The notes under the pieces are model-generated. The model was not told the DNA's origin, made no database searches, and saw only the letters and a list, made by a program, of their open reading frames with translations. DNA of 64,000 bases, from assembly GCF_008580665.1 (NCBI RefSeq), contig NZ_BKDJ01000004.1, positions 62,001-126,000 of the forward strand, given 5' to 3'. The DNA comes from Zafaria cholistanensis. GTDB lineage: Bacteria; Actinomycetota; Actinomycetes; Actinomycetales; Micrococcaceae. Positions 33,719 to 49,852 of the stretch are shown here, piece after piece (the first letter of the stretch is position 1; every line of letters begins with the position of its first letter). A program made the translations under genes and the position numbers.

Positions 33719-34618
33719 CTAGGACTCCTCGAGTTCCCCCAGGCCGTCGTAGGCGGACGCGATGGTGCTGATCCGGCGCCGGCCGGTGGAGACCTGGCGG
33801 TTGAGGACCCCGTTGGCGAGCAGGCCCACCAGGGCCATGGCGGTGGAGTAGCTGTCGAATGCCCCGTCGCTGTCGATGGGGCATTCGATCCAGCAGGAGG
33901 CGGAGGCCGCGTAGCTGCGCGCCGTCCCGTCCCCCACCAGGACGACGTCGGCCTGCGAGGCGGCCAGGAGGCGCACGAGCCGGTCGAAGAGCGCCGGGCG
34001 GCGGCGGAATCCCACCAGCACGACGACGTCGTCCTTGCCCACCCCGGCGAGTTCCTCGCCCAAAGTCTGGCCGGGCTGGGGCGCGACGCGGACGCCGCTG
34101 CGGATCTGGATCAGCTGCTGGTGCAGGTGCAGGGCCACCGGGTAGCTGTTGCGCAGGCCAACCACCAGCAGGTTCCGGGCGCCGGCGAGCAGGTCGACGG
34201 CGGCGTCAAGCCGCCCGTCGGCGAGGAGCGCAACCAGCCGCTCGTGGTTTTCGCGTTCCTTTGCCGCGTGCAGGCCCAGCGCGTCGGGGGTTCCCGCGGC
34301 ACCGGTGCGCGAGGGCGACGCCAGCGGGACGCCCTGGCCGCGCATGGCCCGGGTGTGGTCCTTGACCTCCTTGAAGTCGGCAAAGCCGAGCTTGCGGAAC
34401 AGCCGGGACACCGTGGCCTTGGACACTCCGGTGTCCCGGCTGATGTCCGCCGCACTGAAAACGGCCAGGTCTCCCAGGTGTTCCAGCAGGAAATCCGCCA
34501 CCACCCGCTCCTGCGGGGAGAGCCCGGCGTACCGGGCATCGATCCGGACGTCGATCCGGGCGTCGGTGCGGGTGGAGGCAGCGCCCTGCTGCTCCGCGTC
34601 CGTCGTCTCAATCGTCAT
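33719..34618 (-). CDS. RpiR/MurR-family transcriptional regulator
   Basis: 299 residues: N-terminal helix-turn-helix (residues about 30-100; ISRDTGVSKATVSRLFRKLGF is the recognition unit) and a C-terminal SIS domain (about 125-265; LVVGLRNSYPVALHLHQQL) that senses a sugar phosphate or other small ligand. It lies 52 bp downstream of the allantoate amidohydrolase on the same strand, at the end of the pucG-allC unit, so it is the likely local regulator of ureide use. Its ligand is unknown. Confidence 0.88.
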   Translation of the reverse strand: MTIETTDAEQQGAASTRTDARIDVRIDARYAGLSPQERVVADFLLEHLGDLAVFSAADISRDTGVSKATVSRLFRKLGFADFKEVKDHTRAMRGQGVPLASPSRTGAAGTPDALGLHAAKERENHERLVALLADGRLDAAVDLLAGARNLLVVGLRNSYPVALHLHQQLIQIRSGVRVAPQPGQTLGEELAGVGKDDVVVLVGFRRRPALFDRLVRLLAASQADVVLVGDGTARSYAASASCWIECPIDSDGAFDSYSTAMALVGLLANGVLNRQVSTGRRRISTIASAYDGLGELEES

Positions 34619-34670
34619 GCCTGAAACCCTATCCGCCTCCGGACCCTCCGCCCTTCCGCGATGCCGCGGG

Positions 34671-35975
34671 TCACCCCCGGGCCGCGGCCAGCACCGCGGC
34701 CTCGAACGCATCCAGCGCCACCGCCACATCCTCGAGGGCGACCTTCTCGTCGGGGGCGTGGCTGATGCCGTCCTCGCAGCGGACGAAAAGCATGGCCATG
34801 TCGGTCACCGCCGCCACCGCCATGGCGTCGTGCCCGGCCTTGGAGTACAGCTCCATCGGTTCGGCATCCCCGGTGGCGCGGATGCCGGCGCGCACGGCCT
34901 CCATGAGCCTCGGCGCGCACGGCACCGTGGGCGCGGAGTGGATCTCCCGCACGGAAAGCTCCAGGTTGCGGCCGCGGCAGAAGGCCTGCACCGCCTCCCG
35001 GACCAGGCCCCATACACGGTCGCGCAGCCCGTCGGAGCGGGCGCGCAGGTCCAGGCTGAACTCGACCCGCCCCGGGACCACGTTGACCGCTCCCGGGAAG
35101 GCCTGGAACTGCCCCACCGTGGCGATGGCCCCCTCGGCCCGGGCAATCGCCACGATGTCCAGCACGGCCCGGCTGGCCCCGATGAGTGCGTCGCGGCGCT
35201 TCGCGTAGGGGGTACCGCCCGTGTGCCGGGCCTCCCCTGTGACCGTCAGGTGGAAGCGGCGGGCCCCGGCGATCGAGGTCACGGCGGCCAGCGCCCTGCC
35301 GGCCTCCTCCAGGCGGGGCCCCTGTTCAATATGGACCTCCAGGTATCCGGCCAGGTCCCCGGGCCGGCGGGCGGCCTCCCCGACGCGTCCCGGGTCCAGC
35401 CCGAAGGCGCGGAACGCCTCCTCCAGGGTGGTGCCGTGCGCGTCCTTGAGTCCGAACCAGTCGGGGTTCCAGGTGCCGGCCAGCGCCCGGCTGCCCAGCA
35501 GGGTGGCCCCGAAACGGGTGCCCTCCTCGTCGCCGAACGCCACCGTTTCGATCGCGAACGGCAGCTCGCGGGCCCGCTCCCGCAGCCGGGCCGCGGCCTC
35601 GATGGCGATAAGCACCCCGAGGATGCCGTCGTACTTCCCGGCGTCGGGGACGGTGTCCAGGTGGGAGGCCAGCAGCAGCGCCGGCAGCCCGGGGACCGAG
35701 CCCTCCAGCCGCCCGCACTGGTTGCCGGCCGCGTCCTGCCAGGTGGCGAGGCCGGCCTCGGCCATCCACCCGGCGGCCAGCGCGTTGTGGGCGGCGTGCT
35801 CGGGGGTCAGGTAGGTGCGTTCAATGCCCCCGTCCATGGCGCTGATGGCCGCGAGTTCCTCGCACCGGGCCATGATCCGCGCGGCCGCCTCCAGCGACCG
35901 CGGCGTGGGTCCGGGGGTGCCTCCCGCCGCCGCGGTTCCGGCCTGCGGGGCCCCCAGCGCCCGCGGGCCGCTCAC
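34671..35975 (-). CDS. Allantoate amidohydrolase / M20 carbamoylase-type peptidase
   Basis: Hydrolyses allantoate (or an N-carbamoyl amino acid) with release of ammonia and CO2. 434 residues of the M20/AllC family: metal ligands in SHLDTVPDAGKYDGILGV (H, D), GDEEGTRFG (E) and the last His in GISHAPDEKV; IEQGP marks the dimerisation-side motif. The start overlaps the pucG stop (ATGA). Neighbouring pucG and uraD support an allantoate role over hydantoin use. Confidence 0.85.
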   Translation of the reverse strand: MSGPRALGAPQAGTAAAGGTPGPTPRSLEAAARIMARCEELAAISAMDGGIERTYLTPEHAAHNALAAGWMAEAGLATWQDAAGNQCGRLEGSVPGLPALLLASHLDTVPDAGKYDGILGVLIAIEAAARLRERARELPFAIETVAFGDEEGTRFGATLLGSRALAGTWNPDWFGLKDAHGTTLEEAFRAFGLDPGRVGEAARRPGDLAGYLEVHIEQGPRLEEAGRALAAVTSIAGARRFHLTVTGEARHTGGTPYAKRRDALIGASRAVLDIVAIARAEGAIATVGQFQAFPGAVNVVPGRVEFSLDLRARSDGLRDRVWGLVREAVQAFCRGRNLELSVREIHSAPTVPCAPRLMEAVRAGIRATGDAEPMELYSKAGHDAMAVAAVTDMAMLFVRCEDGISHAPDEKVALEDVAVALDAFEAAVLAAARG

Positions 35976-37216
35976 GAGGCGGCTCCGGCAGGAACTGCCG
36001 CCGCGTCCGCGTAGACCTCGCGGGCCGCACCGATGCCTCCGCCGGCCACGACCCGCGCTCCGGCGGTGCGCAGCATCTGCTCCAGCGCGGCCAGGGTGAG
36101 CATCACGGCGTCCTTGCGGGCGTTGTAGCCCATGGTGCCGATGCGCCAGACCTTGCCGCGCAGGGGGCCGAAGCTGGTGCCGATCTCAATGCCGTAGTCC
36201 ATCAGCAGGGCGGTACGTGCCGCGTCGCCGTCGATGCCTTCGGGGATCCTGACCGCGACCACGTTGTTCATCTTGTGCGCGGTGTCGCCGAAGGTTTCCA
36301 GCCCCATGCCGAGCAGGCCGGCGAGCATTGCGTCGCCGTGCAGCCTGTGCCGGGCGACGGCGTTGTCCAGGCCCTCGGCGACCAGCAGGCGCGCGCATTC
36401 GCGGGCTCCATAAAGCATGCTGGTGGCCTCGGTGTGGTGGTTCAGGCGCTGCTCGCCCCAGTAGTCCATCACCATGGCGAGGTCGAAGTAGTTGGACGCG
36501 ATGCGGGTTCCGACGCCGGCGGTGCCGTCGGCAATGCCGGCCTCGACATGGCGGCGGCCGTTGATCACCTCCACGGCCCGCGGCGAGAGGCTGATCGGGG
36601 CGCTGCCGGAGGGCCCGGCGAGGCACTTCTGCAGGCCGGCGGTGGCGGCGTCGACGCCCCAGGCGTCCATCTCGAAGGCGTTGCCGCCCAGCGAGGCGGT
36701 GGCATCGGTGTAGAAGAGGACCCCATGGCGGGCGCAGAGGGCGCCGATCTCCTCCAGCGGCTGGTTCATGGTGGTGGAGGTATCCCCCTGGACCAGGGCC
36801 AGCAGCTTGGGCCTGGTTTCGATGATGGCCCGCTCGATGGCGGCCGGAGTGAACACCTGGCCCCATTCGGTTTCGCGGACGGCCACCCGGGCCCCGCAGC
36901 GTTCGGCAATCTCCTTCAGCAGGTGGCCAAATCGGCCGAAGATCGGCACCAAGACGGTGTCCCCGGGCTCGACCAGGGACACCAGCGCGGCCTCGATGCC
37001 GGCCCGGGAGGTTCCGTCGACCAGGAAGGTCTGGCGGTTCCGCGTCCTGAACACCTCCCGGTAGAGTTCCATGGTCTGGTTCATGTAGCCGGTCATGGCC
37101 GGGTCGTACTGCCCCACAAGGGCCGCGGACATGGCACGCAGCACCCGGGGGTCGGCGTTGATGGGTCCGGGACCCATCAGGAGCCTCTGCGGCGGGTTGA
37201 TCTGCTCGAATGTCAT
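35972..37216 (-). CDS. pucG: (S)-ureidoglycine--glyoxylate aminotransferase
   Basis: 414-residue PLP fold-type I enzyme. It opens LLMGPGPINADPRVLRAMSA as in PucG/alanine-glyoxylate aminotransferases. The PLP lysine is in AGLQKCLAGPSG; the phosphate-binding TSRAG and the YTDATASLGG aspartate are present. It lies upstream of allC, with a GAAAC-GATT-GTTTC palindrome 75 bp before the start. It would recycle the product of allantoate amidohydrolase with glyoxylate to glycine and oxalurate. Confidence 0.88.
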   Translation of the reverse strand: MTFEQINPPQRLLMGPGPINADPRVLRAMSAALVGQYDPAMTGYMNQTMELYREVFRTRNRQTFLVDGTSRAGIEAALVSLVEPGDTVLVPIFGRFGHLLKEIAERCGARVAVRETEWGQVFTPAAIERAIIETRPKLLALVQGDTSTTMNQPLEEIGALCARHGVLFYTDATASLGGNAFEMDAWGVDAATAGLQKCLAGPSGSAPISLSPRAVEVINGRRHVEAGIADGTAGVGTRIASNYFDLAMVMDYWGEQRLNHHTEATSMLYGARECARLLVAEGLDNAVARHRLHGDAMLAGLLGMGLETFGDTAHKMNNVVAVRIPEGIDGDAARTALLMDYGIEIGTSFGPLRGKVWRIGTMGYNARKDAVMLTLAALEQMLRTAGARVVAGGGIGAAREVYADAAAVPAGAAS

Positions 37217-37313: not shown

Positions 37314-37851
37314 TCAATCTTGGAACGTCGCGGCGGAAGAAGGCGCGGCCACCTGCGCCTCCAGGCGCAGCAGCGCGATCTCGGCCAGCTGTCCGGCCCG
37401 GACCCGGGCCTCGGTCGCCGGGTCGTTGCCCAGGCGCTCATGCAGCCGGGCGAGCATGTCCGCGCCGGTCCGTCCTGCCGCGCGAATAAGGAAAATGCGG
37501 CCGAAGCGTTCCTCATACCGGCGGTTGGCGGCCAGCCATGCGGCCGCCGAAGCCTCATCCAGCCTGCCCCCCCTCCAGCCCGGCCCCGGCCTGCTCCCTG
37601 CGGGAAAGGGCGGCCTCGGCCCCCGAGGTCCGGATCCTTTCACCAATCCGCGGGTGGCGGGCCAATGCGGCGTCCACTTCGGCATCGGTCCAGGCCTCGG
37701 CCAGCCGGGCCGCGCGCTCCAGCAGGGCCGCCGTCCCGGCGTAGGGCCGGGCATCGGCGAGCGCGGCGCACCAGCGCGGGATCGGGGCACAGGCGGCCAA
37801 AAGCCCCAGCACCTCCGCGCGCCCGGCGGCGTTAAAGGTTTCCAGGTCCAT
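37314..37851 (-). pseudogene. uraD: OHCU decarboxylase, broken by a one-base frameshift
   Basis: Encodes 2-oxo-4-hydroxy-4-carboxy-5-ureidoimidazoline decarboxylase, which makes (S)-allantoin. The first frame covers about 90 residues from MDLETFNAAGRAEVLGLL through HPRIGERI (catalytic His) and LSRREQAG. At a run of seven C on the plus strand (37567-37573; G on the coding strand) the frame breaks. The rest (RLDEASAAAWLAANRRYEERF, FLIRAAGR, LLRLEAQV) continues in another frame to 37314. Removing one G restores a 178-residue protein of normal size. It may be a real pseudogene, a phase-variable gene or a sequencing error. Confidence 0.85.
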
Positions 37852-38128
37852 GCGCCATCCATCCTGCCCCTCCGGGACGCCGCTGCAGGGCGTCATGTAC
37901 GGGGCGTCACTGCAGAGCATCGCTGCGGGACGCCGGGCGCCCCCTCTCCCCTGCAGGCTAGGCGCACCGGCTGAACCCGCCGTTTCCGCACTGTTAACAC
38001 CCCGTAACTCACGTTCCAAGAGACGGATGTAAAACATCGTTTCCAGCATTGAAACAATTGAGAAACGAATGTTCCATAGCGTTGGACCCAACAACACCGC
38101 CGCCGGCCCCTGTTCTTGGGAGCACACG
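37852..38128. other. Divergent region uraD / NCS1 permease
   Basis: 277 bp holding both promoters; notably AT-richer at 37990-38070. It contains the GAAAC-type boxes described separately. No gene is seen. Confidence 0.5.
38040..38066. promoter_or_regulatory. GAAAC operator boxes in the uraD/permease promoter
   Basis: GTTTC (38040-38044), GAAAC (38051-38055) and GAAAC (38062-38066); the middle box lies in CCAGCATTGAAACAATTG, which matches the site before pucG apart from a 2-bp gap and one base. Confidence 0.6.
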
Positions 38129-39709
38129 ATGTCCGCACCATCCGCCCAGCAATCCCGCGGCGCCCTGCCGCCGTCGTCGGACCGGCCCGCACCGGGCCTC
38201 GGATCCGCGGCCGTCCACGATCCGCGCCTGACCAACGAGGACCTTGCGCCCCTGGCTGAAAAGAAGTGGAACTGGTACAACATCTTCGCGTTCTGGATGT
38301 CCGACGTGCACAGCGTTGGCGGGTACGTGACGGCGGGCAGCCTGTTCGCGCTGGGCCTCGCCAGCTGGCAGGTGCTGGCCGCGCTGGTGGCGGGCATCGT
38401 GATCGTGCAGGTCTTCGTGAACCTGGTGGCCAAGCCCTCCCAGGTCACCGGCGTTCCCTACCCGGTGATCAACCGCTCCATCTTCGGCGTGCGCGGCGCG
38501 AACATCCCGGCGATCATCCGCGGCCTGATCGCGGTGGCCTGGTACGGGGTGCAGACCTACCTCGCCTCCGAGGCGCTCGTGATCGTGTTCCTGAAGTTCT
38601 GGCCGTCGCTGGCCCCGCTCTACGACGCCGGGCAGTACGGCTTCCTGGGCCTGTCGGCCCTGGGCTACCTTGCCTACGGAATCCTCTGGGTCGCCCAGGC
38701 GTTCGTGTTCTGGCGCGGCATGGAGTCCATCCGCCGCTTCATCGACTGGGCCGGCCCGGCCGTGTACCTGGTGATGATCGTGCTGGCCGTGTACCTGGTG
38801 ACCCAGGCCGGCTGGGAGAACGTGGACCTGAACCTCTCCGGCGGCGAGCCGATGGACTTCGCCGCCTCCATCCCGGTGATGGTTTCCGCGGTCGCGCTGG
38901 TGGTCTCCTACTTCTCCGGCCCCATGCTGAACTTCGGCGACTTCTCCCGCTACGCCAGGGACTTCCGGTCGGTGAAGAAGGGCAACTTCTGGGGCCTGCC
39001 GGTGAACTTCCTGTTCTTCTCCCTCCTGACCGTCATCACCGCTTCCGCCACCGTGCCGGTGTTCGGCGAACTGCTCACCGACCCGATCGAGACGGTCAAC
39101 CGCATCGACACCCCGTTTGCGATCCTGCTCGGCGGCCTGACCTTCGTCATCGCGACCGTGGGCATCAACATCGTCGCCAACTTCATCGCCCCGGCCTTCG
39201 ACTTCTCGAACGTCGCCCCGCAGAAAATCAGCTGGCGCATGGGTGGCATGATCGCCGCCGTCGGCTCCGTGGTCCTGACCCCGTGGAACTGGTACTCCAA
39301 CGCGGACGCCATCCACTATTCCCTGGGCATCCTGGGCGGCTTCATTGGTCCGCTGTTCGGCGTGCTGATCGCCGGCCACTACCTCGCCGCCCGCCAGCGC
39401 GTGGTCGTGGACGACCTCTACACCATGCGCGAATCCGGCAGCTACTGGTTTGCCAAAGGCTACAACCCGAACGCCCTCTGGGCCACGGCCATCGGGGGCA
39501 TTCCGGCGGTCCTGGCCGTCATCCTGCCCAAGCTGCTGCTGGACACCGGCGCCACCGCGGTGGATGCCACCTGGATCAGCGACTACAGCTGGTTCATCGG
39601 CTGCGGGCTCGGATTCGCGGCCCTGGCGGTGCTGGAGAAGGCGAACCCGATGATCCGCGTGCCTTCCCTCGCGGAGGAATCGGTCGTGGACGGGTCGGCC
39701 GCGCAGTGA
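38129..39709 (+). CDS. NCS1-family allantoin/hydantoin/nucleobase permease
   Basis: 526 residues, twelve membrane helices. The family marker near the N-terminus is KKWNWYNIFAFWMSDVHSVG, and the substrate-site region VSYFSGPMLNFGDFSRYA is present. It is divergent from uraD and overlaps the racemase gene by GTGA, so its substrate is most likely allantoin or a hydantoin. ATG at 38129 has TGGGAG upstream; the in-frame ATG at 38069 lies within the operator region. Confidence 0.9.
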   Translation: MSAPSAQQSRGALPPSSDRPAPGLGSAAVHDPRLTNEDLAPLAEKKWNWYNIFAFWMSDVHSVGGYVTAGSLFALGLASWQVLAALVAGIVIVQVFVNLVAKPSQVTGVPYPVINRSIFGVRGANIPAIIRGLIAVAWYGVQTYLASEALVIVFLKFWPSLAPLYDAGQYGFLGLSALGYLAYGILWVAQAFVFWRGMESIRRFIDWAGPAVYLVMIVLAVYLVTQAGWENVDLNLSGGEPMDFAASIPVMVSAVALVVSYFSGPMLNFGDFSRYARDFRSVKKGNFWGLPVNFLFFSLLTVITASATVPVFGELLTDPIETVNRIDTPFAILLGGLTFVIATVGINIVANFIAPAFDFSNVAPQKISWRMGGMIAAVGSVVLTPWNWYSNADAIHYSLGILGGFIGPLFGVLIAGHYLAARQRVVVDDLYTMRESGSYWFAKGYNPNALWATAIGGIPAVLAVILPKLLLDTGATAVDATWISDYSWFIGCGLGFAALAVLEKANPMIRVPSLAEESVVDGSAAQ

Positions 39710-40445
39710 CCATCCGCATCAAGGTCATCAACCCGAACACCACGTGGTCGATGACGGAGAAGATCGGGGCCTGCGCGCGGGCCGTGGCCGGGCCGGGCAC
39801 CGAGGTGGTTGCCGTCAGTCCCGCCATGGGCCCGGCCTCGATCGAGAGCCACTACGATGAGGCGCTGGCCGTTCCCGGCCTGCTTCGGGAGATTGCCGCC
39901 GGGGAGGCCGGGGGATTCGACGCCTATGTCATCGCCTGCTTCGGGGACCCGGGGCTGGAGGCCGCGCGCGAGCTCGCCTCCGGGCCGGTCGTCGGGATCG
40001 CCGAGGCCGCCATGCATGCCGCCTCCCTGCTGGGCCGCAGTTTCAGCGTGGTCACCACGCTGGGCCGGACCGTGGGCCGGGCCAGGGACCTGGCCGGGCA
40101 CTACGGGCTGGCCGGGCGCTGCGCCGGCTACCACGCCTGCGAGATCCCCGTGCTGGACCTGGAGGATCCGGCGTCGGACGCCGCCCGGACCATCACGGCG
40201 CTGGCGGCGCGGGCCCTGGAGACGGACGGGTCCGACGCCGTGGTGCTGGGCTGCGCGGGCATGGCGGACCTGTGCCATGCGATGTCGCAGGAGATCGGGG
40301 CACCGGTGGTGGACGGCGTGGCCGCCGCGACGCTGCTGGCGGAGTCGCTGGTGCGGATGCGCCTGGCCACGGGCAAGCGCGGGGAGTTCGCACGGCCCCG
40401 GCCCAAGCGCTACACGGGGCGCTGGAAGGGTTCACGCTCGCCTGA
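39706..40445 (+). pseudogene. Asp/Glu/hydantoin racemase, frameshifted near the 3' end
   Basis: Likely allantoin or hydantoin racemase. Both catalytic cysteines are present (IACFGDPG and LGCAGMADL) together with IKVINPNTTWSMTEKIG. GTG start overlaps the permease stop. About 237 residues are normal up to KRYTG. At a run of four G (40416-40419) the frame then reads RWKGSRSPDRP and runs on to 41064. If one more G were present, the expected end ALEGFTLA and a stop at 40443-40445 would follow. The core is intact, so a product with a foreign tail may still fold. Confidence 0.8.
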
Positions 40446-40497: not shown

Positions 40498-41001
40498 CTA
40501 TTCGGTTGCCGCCACGGGAACGACCAGGACGGGAAGGGTCTGCTGCTCGGCCAGGTGCGCCGCGGTGGATCCGCCCAGGAACTCCGAGACCATCGGGCCC
40601 ACGCCGGGTTCCCTGGTGCCGACGATGATCATCGACGCACGCGATTCGCGGGCCAGCCGTGCCAGCGCCCTGGCCGGGTCGCCGGCCAGGACCCGCAGCC
40701 GCCAGGGCAGCTCAGCGTCCTCCATGGCCTTCCAGAGGTTGGCCAGGATCAGGGCAACGTCCGCGCCGATGTCCCCGTCCATCTCCCGTGGATGCAGGGA
40801 CAGGTACTCGGTGTCCGGTTCCATGTTCCATTCGACCAGGTAGCTGCCGGGCTCGACGTAGGCGAAGATGATGGGCCGGCCCAGGGCCTGGGACAGCGCC
40901 CGCGCCTCCAGCACCACTTCGGGGTGCTGGTTGGGGATGACCCCGACCACCAGGGGCCCCGGCACCCGGCGCACGGGCTCTGGGGGCACTCTGTCCGCCA
41001 C
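40498..41001 (-). CDS. Universal stress protein (UspA family)
   Basis: 167 residues, one Usp domain: LVVGVIPNQHPEVVLEAR at the first strand and the ATP-type loop GTREPGVGPMVSEFLGGSTA near the C-terminus. It follows the GntR gene on the minus strand. The frameshifted racemase frame runs antisense through it. Confidence 0.85.
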   Translation of the reverse strand: MADRVPPEPVRRVPGPLVVGVIPNQHPEVVLEARALSQALGRPIIFAYVEPGSYLVEWNMEPDTEYLSLHPREMDGDIGADVALILANLWKAMEDAELPWRLRVLAGDPARALARLARESRASMIIVGTREPGVGPMVSEFLGGSTAAHLAEQQTLPVLVVPVAATE

Positions 41002-41102: not shown

Positions 41103-41789
41103 CTACGGTCGGGCGCGGGCGGCCAGGTGGCCCAGCAGTTCGGCCTCGGCCCGGTCCAGGTAGGCCCTCAGGTGTTCAGCGGCACCCCGCCGGTCCCCGG
41201 CCCGCAGCATCGAGACGAACTCTGCGTTGGGCTCGACGTAGTGCGTGTGGAAGTCGGGGGCGTCCACCATCGCGTGGAACACCAGCCGCATCTGTGCCAG
41301 CACCTGCCGCATCAGGCCCTGGAGCTGGACGCTGCCGCTGGCGCGCACCAGGGCCTGGTGGAACTCCTGGTTGGCGTTGGCCATCGCCACCACGTCCCCG
41401 CTGGCCTTGGCCGCGCGCGCCTGCCCCACGATGCCCTCCAGCCCCTCCAGGTCCAGGTCCGTGGACCACAGGGCGGCGGCGGGTTCGATCATGCGCCGGA
41501 CGCGGTAGATCTCGCGGATCTCCTCGGGACCGGGCGAGGCGACGAAGACCCCGCGGTTGGGGATGCGGGTGACCACTGCCTCGCCCGCGAGCACGGTGAA
41601 GGCCTCGCGCAGCGTGTTGCGGGAAACCGACAGCGATTCGGACAGCGCCTGCTCGGAAAGCTTGGCCCCCGGCAGCAGCTGGCCGTCCGCGATCCGGGCG
41701 CGCAGCACACCGGCCACCCACGCCCCGGTGTGGGCGTGGGTGGCGTGCTCGGGCGTGGACATGCCCTGGGATGCGCTGTCGGTCGGCAT
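41103..41789 (-). CDS. GntR-family regulator, FCD (FadR-type) subfamily
   Basis: 228 residues. The winged helix is at about 22-85 (LSEQALSESLSVSRNTLREAF, then RIPNRGVFVASP as the wing), and an all-helical FCD ligand domain is at about 95-220 with metal-site histidines (EFHQALV, HAMVDAPDFHTHY). It is the next gene after the biotin-carboxylase gene in the pxp operon and probably regulates that operon. Confidence 0.9.
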   Translation of the reverse strand: MPTDSASQGMSTPEHATHAHTGAWVAGVLRARIADGQLLPGAKLSEQALSESLSVSRNTLREAFTVLAGEAVVTRIPNRGVFVASPGPEEIREIYRVRRMIEPAAALWSTDLDLEGLEGIVGQARAAKASGDVVAMANANQEFHQALVRASGSVQLQGLMRQVLAQMRLVFHAMVDAPDFHTHYVEPNAEFVSMLRAGDRRGAAEHLRAYLDRAEAELLGHLAARARP

Positions 41790-41865: not shown

Positions 41866-43611
41866 CTAGGAGATCACGGCCAGGACGTCGCCGCGGGCCA
41901 CCGCCGCGCCTGCCTGCACATTGCCCCGCGCCAGCGTGCCGGCACGGTGTGCGCTGATGGTGGTCTCCATCTTCATCGCCTCCAGGACCAGCAGCGGATC
42001 TCCCGCCTCGACCACCGCGCCTTCCTCCGCGACCCACTTGACGATGTTTCCGCTCATGGGCGATGTGAGGGCGCCGGGGTCCTGCGCCGGGTCCAGCAAC
42101 GGATCCTGGGCGGAATCCGCGGCCGGGGCGGCGCCGCCGCCCCGGAGCAGCGCCCCGAGCAGCTTCGCCGGAAGCCCCAGCCGCACGGCCTTGCCGTCGA
42201 CCTCGATCGTGAGTTCGCTCCGTCCGGATTCGGGGGCTGCGGCGATCTGGGGGGAGGCGGCCAGCGGTTCCGCGAACTCCGACTCGATCCAGGTGGTGTA
42301 GATCCCCAGCGCGTCCTCCCCGGCGAAGGCGGCATCGCGGACCACGGCGCGGTGGAAGGGAAGCACCGTGGGGACACCCTCGATGACCATTTCATCGAGC
42401 GCGGTCCGCGCCCGGCGCAGGGCCTGGGCGCGGGTGGCGCCGGTGACGATGAGCTTGGCTGCCAGGGAATCGTAGTGGCCGGGGATGGTCGACCCGGTGC
42501 GCACGCCCGAATCGATGCGCAGTCCAGGCCCGGTGGGCGCCTCGAAAGCGGTGATGGTGCCCGGTCCGGGAAGGAAGCCGCGGGCCGGGTCCTCGGCGTT
42601 GAGGCGGAACTCAAAGGAATGGCCCCGGGGTTCCGGGTCCGCCGTGAAGGAGAGTTCCCCGCCGGCGGCGACCCGGAACTGCTCCTGGACCAGGTCCACG
42701 CCGGTGGTCTCCTCCGTCACCGGGTGCTCCACCTGCAGGCGCGTGTTGACCTCGAGGAAGGAAATCGTTCCGTCGGCGGCCAGCAGGTACTCGACGGTCC
42801 CCGCGCCGTGGTAGCCGGCTTCGCGGCAGATCGCCTTGGCGGAGGCATGGATCCGTTCGCGCTGCGAGGGGGTCAGGAAGGGAGCCGGCGCCTCCTCCAC
42901 GAGCTTCTGGTGGCGCCGCTGCAGCGAGCAGTCCCGGGTGCCGACCACCACCACGTTGCCGTGGGTGTCGGCCAGGACCTGCGCCTCAATGTGGCGTGGC
43001 TTGTCAAGGAAGCGTTCAACGAAGCACTCCCCCCGGCCGAAGGCGGCGGTGGCCTCGCGCACGGCCGACTCGAAGGCGTCCTCGACGTCGTCCAGGGAGC
43101 GGGCAATCTTCAGTCCCCGCCCTCCCCCGCCGAAGGCCGCCTTGATGGCGACCGGGAGGCCGTTCTCCTCGGCGAAGGCACGGGCCTGGGCCGCGTTGGC
43201 GACGGGGCCGTCGGAGCCCGGTACCAGCGGGGCCCCGGCCCGCACCGCGACCTCGCGTGCGGTGACCTTGTTGCCCAGCAGCCGGATGGCCTCCGGGGTC
43301 GGGCCGATCCAGGTGAGCCCGGCGTCGAGCACGGCCTGGGCGAAGTCGGCGTTCTCGGAGAGGAAGCCGTAGCCGGGATGGACGGCGTCGGCGCCGGAGC
43401 GCCGGGCGGCCGCGATGATCTTGCCCATGTCCAGGTAGGTGTCGGCCGGGGCCGAGCCGCCCAGTGCGTAGGCCTCGTCGGCCCGCCGCACGTGGAGGGC
43501 GTCGGCGTCGGGGTCCGCGTAGACGGCGACGGAGAGCAGGCCGGCGTCGGCGCAGGCACGGGCGATGCGGACGGCGATTTCGCCGCGGTTCGCGATGAGG
43601 ACCTTCTTCAT
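41866..43611 (-). CDS. Biotin carboxylase fused to biotin carboxyl carrier domain
   Basis: 581 residues. The N-terminal biotin-carboxylase part starts [19 protein letters not shown] and has the ATP-grasp glycine loop ([12 protein letters not shown]) and [17 protein letters not shown]. The last 70 residues are a BCCP domain with the biotinylation motif EAMKMET. It resembles acyl-CoA carboxylase alpha chains, but no carboxyltransferase is present; the neighbours are pxpBC and pxpA. It may carboxylate the lactam or supply the ATP-dependent step, as in other operons with accBC-pxp genes; the substrate is unproven. AAGGAA precedes the ATG. Confidence 0.85.
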
Positions 43612-43682
43612 GGGGGTTCCTTCGGGACGGGCCGGATGGCCACCGGGAATGGTGGGCGGCTCAGATTCAGGGGGGCGGAGGT

Positions 43683-45335
43683 TCAGGGGGTGGTGGCGGG
43701 GGTGGTGACCGGTTCCAGCGTGTCCGGGTCCACCAGGTGGAAGCGGATGGCGGTGCCCGGGGGCAGTTGGGCGGCTACGGGCAGGTCCTCCGGGACGACG
43801 GCGGCGATCACCGGGTAGCCCCCGGTCACCGGATGGTCGGCGAGGAACACGACGGGAAGGCCCGACGGCGGGACCTGGAGCGATCCGGCCACGGCCCCCT
43901 CGCTGGGCAGTTCCCCGCCACGGACGCGTTCCAGCGGACGTGCCCCCTCGCCCAGGCCCAGGCGCAGGCCGATGCGGTTGGACTCGGTGCCGGCCAGCCA
44001 CTCCTGGCCGGTGAGCCGGGACAGTCCCTCCGGGCCGAACCAGTCATCGCGCGGTCCCGGAACCACGCGGAGAACGGCCACGGCGCCGGGGGCGACCCGC
44101 AGGGCGGACGGCTCGGCAGACCCGACGGCCTGGCCGGGCCGGGCCGGTCCCACCGGCAGGTGCATGCCCGGGGCAAGGGGGGCCGGGCCCAGCCCGGACA
44201 TGGCATCGGTGGACCGGCTGCCCAGCACCGGGGCAACTGCCAGGCCGCCCCGGACGCCGATGTAGGGGCGCAGCCCCGTGGTGGCCGGACCGAGGCGCAG
44301 CGTCTCCCCGTCCAGCAGGGCAAAGGGCGCGTCCTGGCCGGGGTGGCGCGGCGGGCCGGCCACCGCGGGGACGATCTCCAGTTCCACGCGGGCCCCCGCC
44401 ACGGCCAGGACCTGGTCCCCGTGCGCCTTCAGCCGAAGTGAGCCGAGCAGGTTTTCGATGACCGCCGCGCCGGGGGCATTCCCGACCAGGCGGTTGGCCT
44501 GGCGCGCGGAGGCCGCGTCGGCCGCGCCCGAAGCGCTGACCCCCAGGTCCCCCAGTCCGGGGCGCCCGAGGTCCTGGACCAGGGACTGCAGGCCGGCGTC
44601 GAGGACCTCCAGGGTCCCCGCCGCGGGGTCCTGTTCGGCGGAAGCCTGTTCCGCCGGGCGGTCGGCGCCGTCCCGCCCGGGCGCCTCCCCCGGGATGCTG
44701 ATCTCCTCGCGGACCGCGATGAAGCGGACCCGGTCCCCGGGCATGACCAGGGCGGGGGATTCGCGGGAGAGGTCCCACATGGGCTGCCCGGTATGGCCGA
44801 TCAGCTGCCAGCCCCCCGGGGAACGGCGCGGGTAGACCGCCGAAAACCGCCCGGCAAGGGCCACGGAGCCGGCGGGGACTGCGGTGCGGGGGGTGTCCCG
44901 GCGCGGGACTTCCAGGGCGGGATCGCCCCCGGCAAGGTAGCTGAACCCCGGGGCAAAACCGCCGAACGCCGCGGTCCACAGCCGGCCGGTGTGTGCGGCG
45001 ACCACGCCCTCGGGGCCCAGGCCGGTCAGGCGGCCCACCTCGGCGAGGTCCTCGCCGGTGTAGACGACGTCGATCTCCACCGTGCGCCCGGCCCGTGCCC
45101 GTGCCGGGGCGGCCTCGAGGCGGTCGATGGCCGCCCGGCCCGAGAGCGCGGCCGCGCGGGAGGCGAAGCGGACGAGCACCGTCTTGGCGGCGGCAAGCAC
45201 TTCCACCTGGCCCGGCAGCGGGTGATCGGCCAGCGCTCCGTGCAGGGCCACCACGGCCTCCAGCGTGGGCAGTTCGACCAGCAGGGAGCGGGTTCCGGCC
45301 CAGCGGACAGGGTGGCTCATACGAAGCCGGGTCAT
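43683..45335 (-). CDS. pxpBC: Fused 5-oxoprolinase subunits B and C (KipI-KipA type)
   Basis: 550 residues. Residues about 1-215 are PxpB/KipI ([20 protein letters not shown] near residue 115; the GFSYL turn is the family marker). After a Glu/Ala/Gly linker (about 215-238), residues 240-550 are PxpC/KipA ([41 protein letters not shown]). PxpA, B and C together cleave 5-oxoproline to glutamate with ATP. The start overlaps the pxpA stop (ATGA). The B-C fusion is known in other bacteria. Confidence 0.88.
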
Positions 45336-46090
45336 ACGAAGCTCCGGATGCCGACGCCGGCGGCCTCCAGGCCGGCACGCACGGAGGCCGCCATCGCCAC
45401 CGCCCCCGGGGTATCCCCGTGCAGGCAGATGCTTTCGGCGGAGGTCTCGATCCGCGATCCATCACGGGCAATGATTGTGCCCTCCGTGGCGAGGCGGACC
45501 ATGTTGGCGGTGACCTCTGCGGCGTCGTGCAGCACCGCTCCGGCCTCGCGGCGGGAGACCAGGGTTCCGTCGGGGTTGTAGGCGCGGTCCGCGAACGCCT
45601 CGGCCACCCCGCGCAGGCCGGCGGCCTCGGCCCTGGCCAGGGCGACCGACCCGGGCAGGAGCAAAAGCGGCAGGTCCGCCCCGAACGCCTTCACCGCGTC
45701 AACGACGGCCTGGGCGTGCGCCTGGTGGTGGACGATGGCGTTGTACAGGGCCCCGTGCGGCTTGACGTAGCGCACCTGTCCTCCCGCGGCGCGGGCCAGG
45801 GCCTCGAGGGCGCCAATCTGGTACAGGACGTCGTCGGCCAGTTCGGTGGGGGAACAGCCCAGGAACCGGCGCCCGAAGCCCGCCAGGTCCCGGTAGCCCA
45901 CGTGGGCTCCGATGACGACGCCGGCCGCGACCGCGTCGCGGCACGTCCGGGCGATGGTCGAGGGGTCTCCGGCATGGAAGCCGCAGGCCACGTTGGCGCT
46001 GGAGACGGACCTGAAGATCGCGGCGTCGTCGCCCATGCTCCAGTTGCCGAAGGATTCTCCGACGTCGCTGTTCAGGTCGATGAATGGCAT
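45332..46090 (-). CDS. pxpA: 5-oxoprolinase subunit A (LamB/YcsF)
   Basis: 252 residues with the full LamB/YcsF motif set: [13 protein letters not shown] (residues 4-16), [11 protein letters not shown] (32-42), [20 protein letters not shown] (about 108). It is followed by pxpBC in overlapping frames. An 11-bp FadR-type operator lies about 54 bp upstream of the start. Confidence 0.93.
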
Positions 46091-46143
46091 GGTGGTCCCT
46101 GTCTCGTGGCGTGCTGTTCCTCAAGGATGCACGAGAAACCGGG

Positions 46144-46156
46144 ATTGTTCAACAAT
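46144..46156 (-). promoter_or_regulatory. FadR/FCD-type operator before pxpA
   Basis: ATTGTTCAACAAT is a perfect inverted repeat around C and fits the TNGTNNNACNA consensus known for GntR-FCD regulators (TTGTTCAACAA). It is the only AT-rich patch in the 107 bp between the amidase gene and pxpA. Confidence 0.65.
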
Positions 46157-46197
46157 ATTGAGCGCGGGCCGCCCGGAGGCGTCCCCGGAGCCGCTGC

Positions 46198-47850
46198 TCA
46201 GGGCGCGGCGCCCGGGAGCCGGCCCGCCCAGGCCAGCAGTGCCGTATCCGAGCCCGCCGCCCCCACCAGGGACACCCCGCACGGCAGGCCCTCCGCGGTT
46301 TCCAGCGGCACGTTCACCGCCGGCAGTCCCGCGAGACCGGCCAGGCAGGTCAGCAGCAGGGTGCGCTGGCGCTGGCGCTCGATGGCCTCTCCCCCGGCGG
46401 CCGAGTCCCTGGCCAGCGGTGCCACGGATGCCGCCGAGGGAACGACGAGGATCCCGTCGCCCACCAGGGCGCGTACTGCCGCGCGCGCCTCGGCCGCAAG
46501 CTGGCGGGCGGCGGCTTCCTGTTCGGCGGTGCAGGCCGCCGCCAGCCGGAACCGCCCGGCCACATCCGGAGCCAGCCGGTCCCCATGCCGCCCAACCCAC
46601 TCCCCATGGGCGGCCCATGCTTCCCGGCCCTGGATGGCCTGGAACGCCTTCAGCCACGCCCGGTGCCGGTCCGGATCGATGGGCCCGGCCGGCTCGATCC
46701 GCCCGGCGGGGCCGTCCGCTTCCCACCGGTCCAGGGCCGCCCGGATCGCGGCCGCCACATCGCCATCCGCCAGGTCCAGCAGGCCCGGCACCAGCCGCAG
46801 CCCCGGGAACGCGGCCGCCGGAGCGGCGGCCGGCAGCAGCACCCGCCCCACCGCCTCCAGCACTTCCGGGGTCCGGGCCATCCAGCCCACCGTGTCGAAG
46901 CTGGGTGCCAGGGGCACCAGGCCTTCGGTGGACACGGCTCCGTGCGTGGTGCGGATCCCCCACAGCCCCTGGTAGGCGGAGGGCACGCGGACCGACCCGC
47001 CCGTGTCCGTGCCCAGCCCGATGCTTGCGTGCCCCAGCGACACTGCCGACGCGGATCCGGAGGAGGACCCTCCGCTGATCCGGAACGGCGCCTTCGGGTT
47101 CGGCGGGGTGCCGTAGTGCGTGTTGGTTCCGGCCAGGCTGTACGCGAACTCGTCGGTCGCGGCCATGCCCTTGACGGACGCTCCGGCCCCCAACAGCGCC
47201 GCGACCGCCGCCGCCGTCGTGGTTTCCGGGACGGCCTGGGCCAGGTGCGCCGGACTGCCGGCACCCACCCGCTGCCCGGCCACCGCGTAGAGGTCCTTGA
47301 CCGCGACCGTCTCCCCGTCCAGGATCCCCGGGGCGGCCGGGGGCACCAGCGGATCCCCCACCACGCGCCAGACCCGCCGGTCAAAGGCCGGCGGGCTGAC
47401 AGCCACGTGCGCCACGGCAACCTGCCACGTGCCCCCGTTCCGCACCCAAACCTGGGTCTGCTGGCCGCGGCCGCCGCTGAGCAGTTCGGTGACGGCGACG
47501 ACCACCGCATGCTCCGGCCCCAGCGCGCGGACCTCGGTGGCGACGATCCGCCGCTTCGGGGCGCCGCCGCGGGTGCCGCGGAAACCGCTGATCGCCTCGT
47601 GGCCCACCAGCAGGCCGCTGCTGTCCCCGCGCATCGTGTCCGACCCGGGTGCGAAAAGCGCGTCCATCGCGGGCAGGTCGTTCTCCATGAGGGCGCGCTC
47701 GTACTCCCAGAACGCCTCCATCAGGCCGGGGATCGCGGTACTTGGGGTCGGGGTGCCGGGAGCCGGGGTGCCGGGGGTCGGGGTGCCGGGGGTCGGGGTG
47801 CCGGGGGCTCCCGCCTCCTGCGCGGCCGGGCGCGGGTGGACGGCGCTCAC
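46198..47850 (-). CDS. AtzH-like (DUF3225) domain fused to an amidase-signature hydrolase
   Basis: About 550 residues. After a Pro/Gly/Thr linker repeat (residues about 15-40), a SnoaL/AtzH-like domain covers about 45-170 (MEAFWEYERALMENDLPAMD). An amidase-signature domain follows from about 175, with the Ser-cisSer-Lys triad: Lys in VAVKDLY, cis-Ser in ISGGSSSGSASAV, nucleophile Ser in GTDTGGSVRVP. AtzH/AtzE and allophanate-hydrolase systems have these as separate proteins. GTG start overlaps the formamidase stop. The substrate is likely a small amide or carboxybiuret-like compound, by inference. Confidence 0.8.
   Translation of the reverse strand: MSAVHPRPAAQEAGAPGTPTPGTPTPGTPAPGTPTPSTAIPGLMEAFWEYERALMENDLPAMDALFAPGSDTMRGDSSGLLVGHEAISGFRGTRGGAPKRRIVATEVRALGPEHAVVVAVTELLSGGRGQQTQVWVRNGGTWQVAVAHVAVSPPAFDRRVWRVVGDPLVPPAAPGILDGETVAVKDLYAVAGQRVGAGSPAHLAQAVPETTTAAAVAALLGAGASVKGMAATDEFAYSLAGTNTHYGTPPNPKAPFRISGGSSSGSASAVSLGHASIGLGTDTGGSVRVPSAYQGLWGIRTTHGAVSTEGLVPLAPSFDTVGWMARTPEVLEAVGRVLLPAAAPAAAFPGLRLVPGLLDLADGDVAAAIRAALDRWEADGPAGRIEPAGPIDPDRHRAWLKAFQAIQGREAWAAHGEWVGRHGDRLAPDVAGRFRLAAACTAEQEAAARQLAAEARAAVRALVGDGILVVPSAASVAPLARDSAAGGEAIERQRQRTLLLTCLAGLAGLPAVNVPLETAEGLPCGVSLVGAAGSDTALLAWAGRLPGAAP
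47747..47806 (-). repeat. 15-bp tandem repeat encoding PGTPT
   Basis: Four 15-bp units (GTCGGGGTGCCGGGG, two identical) in frame near the start of the AtzH-amidase gene, coding for a Pro-Gly-Thr-Pro-Thr/Ala linker. Confidence 0.95.
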
Positions 47851-48935
47851 TTGGCCACCTCCGCGAAGTCCTCGATGCGGATGCGTGCATGCACGCCCTT
47901 CACCAAATCCACCACTTGGGAGATGTTGAAGTCCGTCGCCGCGCTCAGGTAGGCGTAGGCATGCTCGGCATCCAGTCCCCAGCGTGCCTGCAGCAGCGCC
48001 ACCGCCGCGCGCACGCAATCCTGCACGGCCAGGTCCAGGTCCTCGTCCATGCCGGTGGGCACCAGGTAGTCGGCGGTCTCGGCCACGGGGCCCAGCTGGT
48101 CACCGAAGAGCCGCAGCGCGTCCTCGCGCGGCACGACGTCGAACCGGAGCCGGGCGCGCAGGCTCGCCTCCATCGCGGTGAGGGCCACTTCCCCGTCGCC
48201 TTGGGCGAAGTGCGGGTCCCCGACATAGGCCAGCGCGCCCTCGACCTGCACCGGCAGGTACAGCGAGGCGCCCTCGACCATGAGGTTGATGTCGATGTTG
48301 CCCCCGTGCCGCCCCGGGGGAACCGAGTGCGGGCGGGTGTCCGCGTCAACGGCGACGCCCATGGTGCCCAGGAACGGGCGCAGCGGGAAGCGGATGCTGC
48401 GCCCGGCGCCGGCGAACGGGGCCATGGTGCCGCAGGCCCCGCGCGGGGTGTCTTCGACGCCGGCGAAGACGCTGACATTGCCGGGCCCGCGCGGATACTC
48501 CCCGGGCAGCGCGCCGCGGCCGTGCCGGTTGGAGACAACGCCGTAGGGCACGCGCCGCTCCAGCCCCGCGACGGTGATCTTGAGCAGGTCCCCAGGACGG
48601 GCGCCGGCGACGTGGATGGGGCCGGTGACCACGTGCGGGCCGTCGGTGCCCGGGTCGCGGGCACAGTCGCCGGCGGCGAGCGCCACGGCGTCGCGCAGCA
48701 CCTGTTCCCCGTCCACCCCGTGGGTGGCGAAGAAGGCGCGCGGGTCGCGGCCCTGGTCCTCGAGGATGCCCTCGTGGCTGATGGTGTCGATGACCGCCTC
48801 GGTGCCGGGCTCGAGCTTGAGCACGGGGGCGTCGGCCGCGCACGGCAGCCTGCCCCACAGCACGTTGCCTGCGGCGGAGGGCAGGTAGGGGGCCCCGGCG
48901 GGAAGGTGTTCCCCCGGCTGCAGGATGGTGGTCAT
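47847..48935 (-). CDS. Acetamidase/formamidase family protein
   Basis: 362 residues. FmdA/AmdA signature blocks: VVTGPIHVAGARPGDLLKI (about 100-120), PFLGTMGVA, GRHGGNIDINLMVEGASLYL and VGDPHFAQGDGEV. It hydrolyses formamide or acetamide to ammonium and the acid. It is the first gene of the minus-strand amide/5-oxoproline string and is divergent from yoaK. Confidence 0.9.
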   Translation of the reverse strand: MTTILQPGEHLPAGAPYLPSAAGNVLWGRLPCAADAPVLKLEPGTEAVIDTISHEGILEDQGRDPRAFFATHGVDGEQVLRDAVALAAGDCARDPGTDGPHVVTGPIHVAGARPGDLLKITVAGLERRVPYGVVSNRHGRGALPGEYPRGPGNVSVFAGVEDTPRGACGTMAPFAGAGRSIRFPLRPFLGTMGVAVDADTRPHSVPPGRHGGNIDINLMVEGASLYLPVQVEGALAYVGDPHFAQGDGEVALTAMEASLRARLRFDVVPREDALRLFGDQLGPVAETADYLVPTGMDEDLDLAVQDCVRAAVALLQARWGLDAEHAYAYLSAATDFNISQVVDLVKGVHARIRIEDFAEVAK

Positions 48936-49728: not shown

Positions 49729-49780
49729 TTCCCGGCCGCTGAATCAACCCGCCGGGGGCGGTACGCGGGGGGGTGCCCGG

Positions 49781-49852
49781 GCGGGTGTGCGGACGGGTGT
49801 GCGGACGGGTGTGCGGACGGGTGTGCGGGCGGGTGTGCGGGCGGATGCGCAC
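49781..49852. repeat. 12-bp tandem repeat between yoaK and the NTP-transferase gene
   Basis: Five 12-bp units (ACGGGTGTGCGG or GCGGGTGTGCGG) and a degenerate sixth, in the 136 bp between two convergent genes. Confidence 0.95.

Follow-up and report, generated by a model that had tools for sequence, protein, structure and literature searches.

The locus analysed here lies in a window of 64,000 nucleotides from Zafaria cholistanensis (Micrococcaceae; RefSeq assembly GCF_008580665.1, contig NZ_BKDJ01000004.1, positions 62,001 to 126,000), the genome of which is a 3.29-Mb assembly of 49 contigs that is 99.96% complete. It combines genes for two amidase-type enzymes with a block of 5-oxoproline (pxp) genes that includes a biotin carboxylase, all on the minus strand. 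The first gene (47847-48935) encodes an FmdA_AmdA-family protein of the acetamidase/formamidase family (Pfam PF03069, 112 bits), and the second (46198-47850) a fusion of an AtzH-like domain with an amidase-signature enzyme (PF11533 and PF01425), here called AtzH-amidase. A gap of 107 bases, which contains a perfect palindrome at 46144-46156, separates the latter from pxpA (45332-46090), whose product belongs to the LamB/YcsF family (PF03746, 330 bits) and is scored as PxpA by NCBIfam (NF003814, 357 bits against a cut-off of 226). Next come pxpBC (43683-45335), a PxpB-PxpC fusion of the domains CT_C_D and CT_A_B (PF02682 and PF02626; TIGR00724, 230.6 bits against a cut-off of 230.2), a gene for a biotin carboxylase (BC) with a C-terminal biotinyl domain (41866-43611), assigned by Pfam, tree and motif to the AccA3-type alpha subunits and here called BC–BCCP for its biotin carboxyl carrier protein part, and a gene for a GntR/FCD regulator (41103-41789; PF00392 and PF07729). 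The gene calls of an earlier note on this DNA are confirmed, together with the four-base overlaps it had reported, GTGA at 47850-47847 between the FmdA-family and AtzH-amidase genes and ATGA at 45335-45332 between pxpA and pxpBC. The note had counted the GntR gene and a UspA gene into an operon at 41866-48935; the genes are there, but both fall outside these limits. The Usp-domain gene (40498-41001, minus strand; PF00582), downstream of gntR, probably lies outside the system as well, because only one of 60 family pxp loci (L057) has a Usp match, on the opposite strand.

The locus is best explained as two adjacent nitrogen-salvage units under separate control: unit 1 consists of the FmdA-family gene and AtzH-amidase, and unit 2 of pxpA, pxpBC, BC–BCCP and gntR. 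A search with the whole fusion as the query matched relatives of AtzH-amidase in 39 genomes out of 296 in the class and 13 out of 245 in the family (counting the genome studied here in both). We compared 32 of their neighbourhoods, taken from all 12 other family genomes and from 20 of the other 38 in the class (at L157 and L159 the stretch begins at a contig end). An FmdA relative is found in the same 12-20-kb stretch in 28 of the 32 and within 3 kb in 25; AtzH matches are present in 26, a class-V aminotransferase in 24, an M20 hydrolase in 23, a 2-oxo-4-hydroxy-4-carboxy-5-ureidoimidazoline (OHCU) decarboxylase in 20 and an RpiR regulator in 18, L140 included. None of the 32 contains a pxp gene or a BC. 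Conversely, neither unit-1 nor ureide genes (FmdA family, AtzH, amidase) were found in the stretches of the 60 family pxp loci, nor the FmdA-family or AtzH-amidase genes in 80 named pxp loci. Because unit 1 and the pxp genes do not co-occur in the surveyed neighbourhoods, a single composite operon is rejected, and with it the single amide/lactam pathway that the earlier note had proposed. Both systems are present but apart in at least four family genomes, at a distance of 141 kb in G101 and 1.6 Mb in G164 and on different contigs in G053 and G065.

The palindrome between the two units reads ATTGTTGAACAAT on the coding strand, and 53 bases lie between its end and the pxpA start codon (ATG). Even with two mismatches allowed, the operator sequence ATTGTTnAACAAT (46144-46156) has no second match in the window, where 0.07 were expected, and it is the sole exact copy in the genome, in which the reversed-pattern control gave none. 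Exact copies occur in 42 of the 58 family loci with a PxpA match (two of the 60 gave none) and in 56 of the 80 named loci, 55 of which also have a BC; a GntR match on the pxp strand is found in 42 of the 60 family loci, and GntR travels with the operator. For Corynebacterium glutamicum, the passages available from PMC13274462 state that growth on 5-oxoproline requires pxpTABC, that the PxpR site, probed in a reporter with mutated and deleted versions, is 5'-agattgttcaacaatct-3', and that PxpR binds 5-oxoproline with a dissociation constant of 726 nM, no binding of proline, glutamate, glutamine or aspartate being seen under the tested conditions. This site shares the core ATTGTTnAACAAT with the window operator. 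We infer that the GntR/FCD protein would be a PxpR-type repressor and 5-oxoproline sensor acting through ATTGTTnAACAAT; because the core of this operator is that of a site used by a 5-oxoproline sensor, unit 2 is likely to be induced by 5-oxoproline and to act on it. The substrate, called undefined in the earlier note, is thereby largely settled for the pxp half of the locus. Two copies of the operator with one mismatch each, 121 bases apart, lie on contig C5 of the same genome (L321:4313-8449), flanked by another GntR/FCD gene and a gene for an 804-amino-acid fused amino-acid ABC transporter; a DUF1989 gene adjoins.

The two domains of PxpBC, which are named 'Carboxyltransferase domain, subdomain C and D' and 'Carboxyltransferase domain, subdomain A and B' in Pfam, both score above their cut-offs (PF02682 and PF02626) and place the protein among carboxyltransferases of the CT_A_B/CT_C_D type; no nucleotide-binding domain was found in it with Pfam at an E-value of 0.001. 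An AlphaFold model of PxpBC computed from 18 sequences (mean predicted local distance difference test score 85.2) matched TTHA0988 (E 3.9e-42), Mycobacterium smegmatis MSMEG_0435-0436 and Escherichia coli YbgJK in Foldseek, and also the Kluyveromyces lactis urea carboxylase (3VA7, E 4.7e-18) and urea amidolyase (E 7.5e-19). Moreover, 14 columns of PxpB and 42 of PxpC that are more than 90% conserved in 60 BC-linked rows are invariant in three bacterial urea carboxylases. Because PxpBC carries carboxyltransferase domains of the urea carboxylase type, a carboxyltransferase partner is encoded next to the BC, contrary to the earlier note, which had seen none. A urea carboxylase in pieces was considered and rejected: TIGR02712, which describes the single-chain BC-carboxyltransferase-BCCP enzyme, has a cut-off of 1303.85 bits, and PxpBC (128.7) and the BC (532) fall far below it; the neighbours differ too, as the three urea carboxylase clusters examined (L132, L134 and L135) all carry UAAP1/2 and two of them allophanate hydrolase. 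The urea carboxylase order of the two domains (PxpC then PxpB) was also seen at L213 and L222, with no BC match within the 13-kb stretch.

The BC has its own biotinyl domain, as had been read from the sequence, with the motif EAMKM at residues 544-548 and Lys547 as the biotinyl lysine. Its closest solved chain is M. smegmatis AccA3 (764 bits), and its BC part is 67% identical to that of the housekeeping BC–BCCP of the same genome; closest chain and tree alike identify it as an alpha subunit of the acyl-CoA carboxylase type. The BC tree (midpoint root; L181 and L198 left out as duplicates) has a 100/100 branch with the AccA3-type housekeeping subunit, the fused operon BCs and the BCs of Rhizobium and Klebsiella on one side and the split accC types on the other; thus at least two BC lineages are used. 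PDB entry 9YX5, one of seven with this AccA3 chain, also holds relatives of both PxpBC halves that rank among the closest with a solved structure: its title describes the M. smegmatis long chain acyl-CoA carboxylase complex 'with MSMEG_0435-MSMEG_0436 bound', and title and chain names are the source used here. MSMEG_0435-0436 alone is PDB entry 3MML. No PF01039 carboxyltransferase is encoded in the window. The earlier note had allowed for a carboxyltransferase encoded elsewhere that pairs with this BC, and the genome does have two PF01039 genes. One is 60 bases away from a BC match of its own, and between the other and the housekeeping BC–BCCP there are 9.3 kb; the operon BC may also pair with either in trans. 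The note's suggestion of PxpBC as a possible acceptor for the BC has gained in weight from the carboxyltransferase domains and from the 9YX5 complex with the AccA3 BC–BCCP, and PxpBC is well supported as the likely carboxyltransferase partner of the operon BC–BCCP. A second, split set of genes, encoding PxpA, a small biotinyl protein, AccC, PxpB and PxpC, is present on contig C9 of the same genome (L003:6604-10989); its biotinyl motif is EIMKQ, as against EAMKM in the BC of the window.

In 51 of the 60 family loci and 68 of the 80 named loci, the gene for a BC comes after pxpBC on the strand they share. The family loci were chosen by hand among the matches listed (222 of 245 family genomes matched, that of Z. 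cholistanensis included), spread over genera with high scores favoured, so that the figure of 51 leans to close relatives; the named loci are the best 80 of 172, mostly from Arthrobacter, Pseudarthrobacter, Kocuria and Cryobacterium. A less biased sample of the phylum, with a CT_A_B gene in 24 of its 90 genomes, gave 27 places outside the genome studied here (a split gene counted once), all of which were used; four with the urea carboxylase order were set aside, leaving 23 Pxp-type loci, two of them (L228 and L230) without PxpA in the stretch. A BC is present in eight of the 23 stretches, in four on the opposite strand (L215, L217, L221 and L224). Among the 40 rows listed for plasmids (737 records), 11 Pxp-type and three uca stretches were examined, and a BC is found in seven of the 11, from Rhizobium, Klebsiella, Bradyrhizobium, Limosilactobacillus, Pseudomonas, Agrobacterium and Paraburkholderia, the last without pxpA in the stretch. 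With a BC expected near PxpBC by chance in about 2-3% of cases, a rough figure taken from the BC density of the Z. cholistanensis genome, the linkage exceeds chance. The arrangement is widespread and visible already in public annotation. On a Falsirhodobacter plasmid (L138), pxpB-pxpC lies by a tripartite transporter, with neither PxpA nor BC in the stretch.

The linkage and the partner suggest that 5-oxoproline is activated with carboxybiotin. It is proposed that the BC, with ATP and bicarbonate, would carboxylate its own biotinyl domain at Lys547 to give carboxybiotin, from which PxpBC would take CO2. The likely acceptor would be the lactam nitrogen of 5-oxoproline; the putative ring-opening hydrolase PxpA would open the N-carboxy-lactam to N-carboxyglutamate, which would lose CO2 to yield glutamate. 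Such a route would parallel that of urea carboxylase and allophanate hydrolase, and this part of the scheme, from the acceptor onward, is the least certain. Domains, linkage and operator are observed, and the PDB contains a homologous complex; what accepts the carboxyl group and in which sequence the steps run are inferred.

For unit 1, the best explanation is that it forms the end of a ureide operon. L140, from another family of the same order, has the unbroken arrangement of a DUF1275 protein, the FmdA-family protein, AtzH-amidase, OHCU decarboxylase, aminotransferase, allantoate amidohydrolase and RpiR. The window keeps this gene order with about 8.3 kb lying between the amidase and OHCU decarboxylase genes, an interval made up of the pxp block, the Usp gene and two genes on the opposite strand; the simplest reading is that the pxp block sits inside the ureide operon, into which it putatively moved. 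The two plus-strand genes encode an Asp/Glu/hydantoin racemase (39709-40422; PF01177), which probably goes with the ureide genes, and an NCS1-family permease (38069-39709; PF02133), probably for a ureide, which the NCBIfam NCS1 and allantoin permease models match below their cut-offs. The racemase is found in four of the 32 amidase neighbourhoods (L154, L176, L178 and L180) and the permease likewise in four, and neither occurs in the 60 pxp loci. Beyond them, on the minus strand, lie the genes for OHCU decarboxylase (37350-37851), a class-V aminotransferase (35972-37216; PF00266, NCBIfam models all below cut-off) proposed to be a ureidoglycine-glyoxylate aminotransferase, an M20-family allantoate amidohydrolase (34671-35975; NF006775, 506.7 bits against a cut-off of 479) and the RpiR-family regulator (33719-34729; PF01418 and PF01380). 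OHCU decarboxylase was recovered by tblastn as two pieces in different frames (37851-37585 and 37526-37350); the frame change sits at or near a G run and is either a real defect or an assembly error. The ureide operons of the relatives contain the same decarboxylase, amidohydrolase and aminotransferase, and some also allantoinase and 5-hydroxyisourate (HIU) hydrolase (L141) or allantoinase (L154). A tandem repeat of 12/24/36 bases lies 3' of the DUF1275 gene at 49771-49850.

The AtzH-like domain is clear from Pfam (PF11533, 72.9 bits over a cut-off of 27), and the HpxZ equivalog model gives AtzH-amidase 61.9 bits, below its cut-off of 135. The amidase motifs lie at residues 182, 260 and 280 and contain the Lys-Ser-Ser triad. 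In the alignment the positions of the catalytic Tyr22 and Arg46 of AtzH are conserved, with an offset in residue number that we put at 22; the roles of both residues, and a carboxylated urea as the substrate of AtzH, are described in the passages available from PMC6219798. A 15-base tandem repeat at 47725-47807 encodes a Gly-Thr-Pro-rich N-terminal tail of AtzH-amidase. The FmdA-family protein scores 71.8 bits with the NCBIfam formamidase model, the cut-off of which is 500, so that the 'formamidase' of the earlier note is supported as far as membership of the acetamidase/formamidase family. According to the part of PMC5270733 consulted, ureidoglycine transamination leads to oxalurate in Bacillus subtilis. 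In the ureide setting, AtzH-amidase would probably convert oxalurate to oxamate with release of ammonia, its AtzH domain could decarboxylate N-carboxyoxamate, and the FmdA-family protein would probably hydrolyse oxamate (or a related amide) to oxalate. For Actinomycetota, the pair offers concrete candidate enzymes for hydrolysing oxalurate and oxamate.

We consider it probable that the locus is made up of this ureide unit and of a 5-oxoproline catabolic operon with a dedicated BC–BCCP for which PxpBC is the carboxyltransferase; as this explanation is compound, the confidence placed in it overlaps that placed in its rivals. The view in print, in the passages available from PMC13274462, is that PxpBC phosphorylates 5-oxoproline, a role described there as assumed. 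If PxpABC worked in this way, the BC–BCCP might recapture CO2/bicarbonate or act as a regulator by binding as in 9YX5, an account that would agree with the growth of C. glutamicum on 5-oxoproline with a pxpTABC operon free of BC (PMC13274462, likewise in part) and with the ATP hydrolysis by co-purified PxpB/PxpC reported in the part of PMC8453981 at hand; the full carboxyltransferase pair of PxpBC, without a Pfam nucleotide-binding domain, makes it rather unlikely. The BC–BCCP might instead be an extra acyl-CoA carboxylase alpha subunit that serves AccD-type carboxyltransferases in trans, its place beside pxp being incidental. Its AccA3 type, its 67% identity to the housekeeping protein, the acyl-CoA carboxylase alpha subunits among its best PDB matches and the two classical carboxyltransferases of the genome are what such a role would predict, whereas linkage to pxpBC across genera and phyla in two BC lineages, a place inside an operon with a PxpR-type operator and the PxpB/PxpC homologues bound to the AccA3 complex all argue against it, and we think it quite improbable. 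Least credible of all, and along the lines of the earlier note, is that PxpBC and BC–BCCP carboxylate another substrate (a ureide, urea or an amide), with PxpA or AtzH-amidase hydrolysing the product. The same domains do occur in urea carboxylase, with an allophanate hydrolase gene adjoining, AtzH does act on a carboxylated urea (PMC6219798, in part), and a different gene of the amidase family is present in the stretch at L215 and at L317, both of them Pxp loci (partial matches of 73.9 and 55.1 bits, with no AtzH or FmdA match); against this stand the absence of pxp genes from all 32 amidase neighbourhoods, the 5-oxoproline sensor core of the operator and the UAAP1/2 and allophanate hydrolase genes that accompany urea carboxylase itself.

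Several observations weigh against the compound reading that we prefer. No BC was found nearby in nine of the 60 family loci, 12 of the 80 named loci and 15 of the 23 phylum loci, although among the last L218 has a biotinyl match and reaches a contig end and three further stretches are short; nor was a BC found in four of the 11 plasmid stretches (Methylobacterium, Leisingera, Falsirhodobacter and the thinly annotated E. coli STEC1080) or beside pxpBCA in E. coli K-12. No column more than 90% conserved in the 60 BC-linked rows drops below 50% in 13 BC-free rows, and hence PxpBC bears no residue-level sign of biotin use. The published assumption of phosphorylation, the ATPase activity and the BC-free growth of C. 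glutamicum count on the same side. The 9YX5 entry is evidence of binding and says nothing on activity, and PxpBC falls short of the NCBIfam equivalog cut-offs for PxpB (125.9 of 145.55) and PxpC (153.6 of 500). The exact operator is absent from 16 of the 58 family loci and 24 of the 80 named loci. In unit 1, the oxalurate and oxamate roles are drawn from gene context, and the AtzH match, present in 20 of 20 class loci, is absent from six of the 12 family amidase loci, so that the AtzH-amidase fusion is not constant. Those six (L171, L172, L173, L175, L179 and L180) lie in a ureide setting, and their AtzH domain may have been lost, have diverged beyond recognition or have been gained in the others. 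The lack of a conserved residue that tells BC-linked from BC-free PxpBC, and the binding of MSMEG_0435-0436 to an AccA3 complex, are both compatible with a wider idea that we offer tentatively, namely that prokaryotic 5-oxoprolinase is in general a biotin-dependent carboxylase plus a hydrolase, in which PxpBC would N-carboxylate the lactam from carboxybiotin and PxpA would open it, with a BC–BCCP taken from the operon or, where none is linked, borrowed from fatty-acid synthesis (AccA3/AccBC).

As stated in the passages available from PMC13274462, the majority of the prokaryote genomes analysed encode a PxpABC-type enzyme, and 5-oxoproline is expected in all cells. A biotin-dependent PxpABC is not described in the passages available from PMC8453981, PMC13274462, PMC7642360 and PMC12427679, a comparison that excludes the founding PxpABC and Clostridioides difficile papers; a literature search of partial coverage found no paper on 9YX5. 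In part of PMC12427679, an extra BC and BCCP pair is read as serving lipid synthesis, and pxpB/pxpC are reported apart from the pair. If carboxybiotin is indeed what energizes 5-oxoproline, many genes now annotated as 'extra acetyl-CoA carboxylase' would be annotated differently, and lactam opening would join urea among the chemistries driven by N-carboxylation. The breakdown of guanidine is likewise driven by N-carboxylation. With its dedicated BC and identifiable acceptor protein, the operon opens the mechanism of a very common enzyme to experiment.

Among known systems, the Klebsiella oxalurate/oxamate genes, which include HpxX, HpxY and HpxZ, are the nearest to unit 1. HpxWXYZ also combines an HpxZ/AtzH-like domain with an amidase in a ureide setting, whereas in the window the AtzH-like domain is fused to the amidase and the FmdA-family protein would replace HpxW, which is described in the available parts of PMC5270733 and PMC12625717. 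Unit 2 agrees with PxpTABC/PxpR of C. glutamicum in its PxpA, PxpB and PxpC families, its GntR regulator and the operator core ATTGTTnAACAAT, and differs from it in having a BC–BCCP, in the fusion of PxpB and PxpC, which are separate genes in C. glutamicum, and in the lack of a transporter gene in the pxp block. With urea carboxylase and urea amidolyase (3VA7 and 5I8I; L132, L134 and L135) it shares BC, CT_A_B, CT_C_D and biotinyl domains and the 56 conserved columns; there, however, the domains are on one chain in another order, and UAAP genes adjoin in place of PxpA, joined in two of the three clusters by allophanate hydrolase. The M. smegmatis complex 9YX5 unites in one entry relatives of both PxpBC halves and the solved chain nearest to the BC–BCCP; the BC–BCCP there is the AccA3 of acyl-CoA carboxylase, whereas in Z. 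cholistanensis a dedicated paralogue is encoded in the operon itself.

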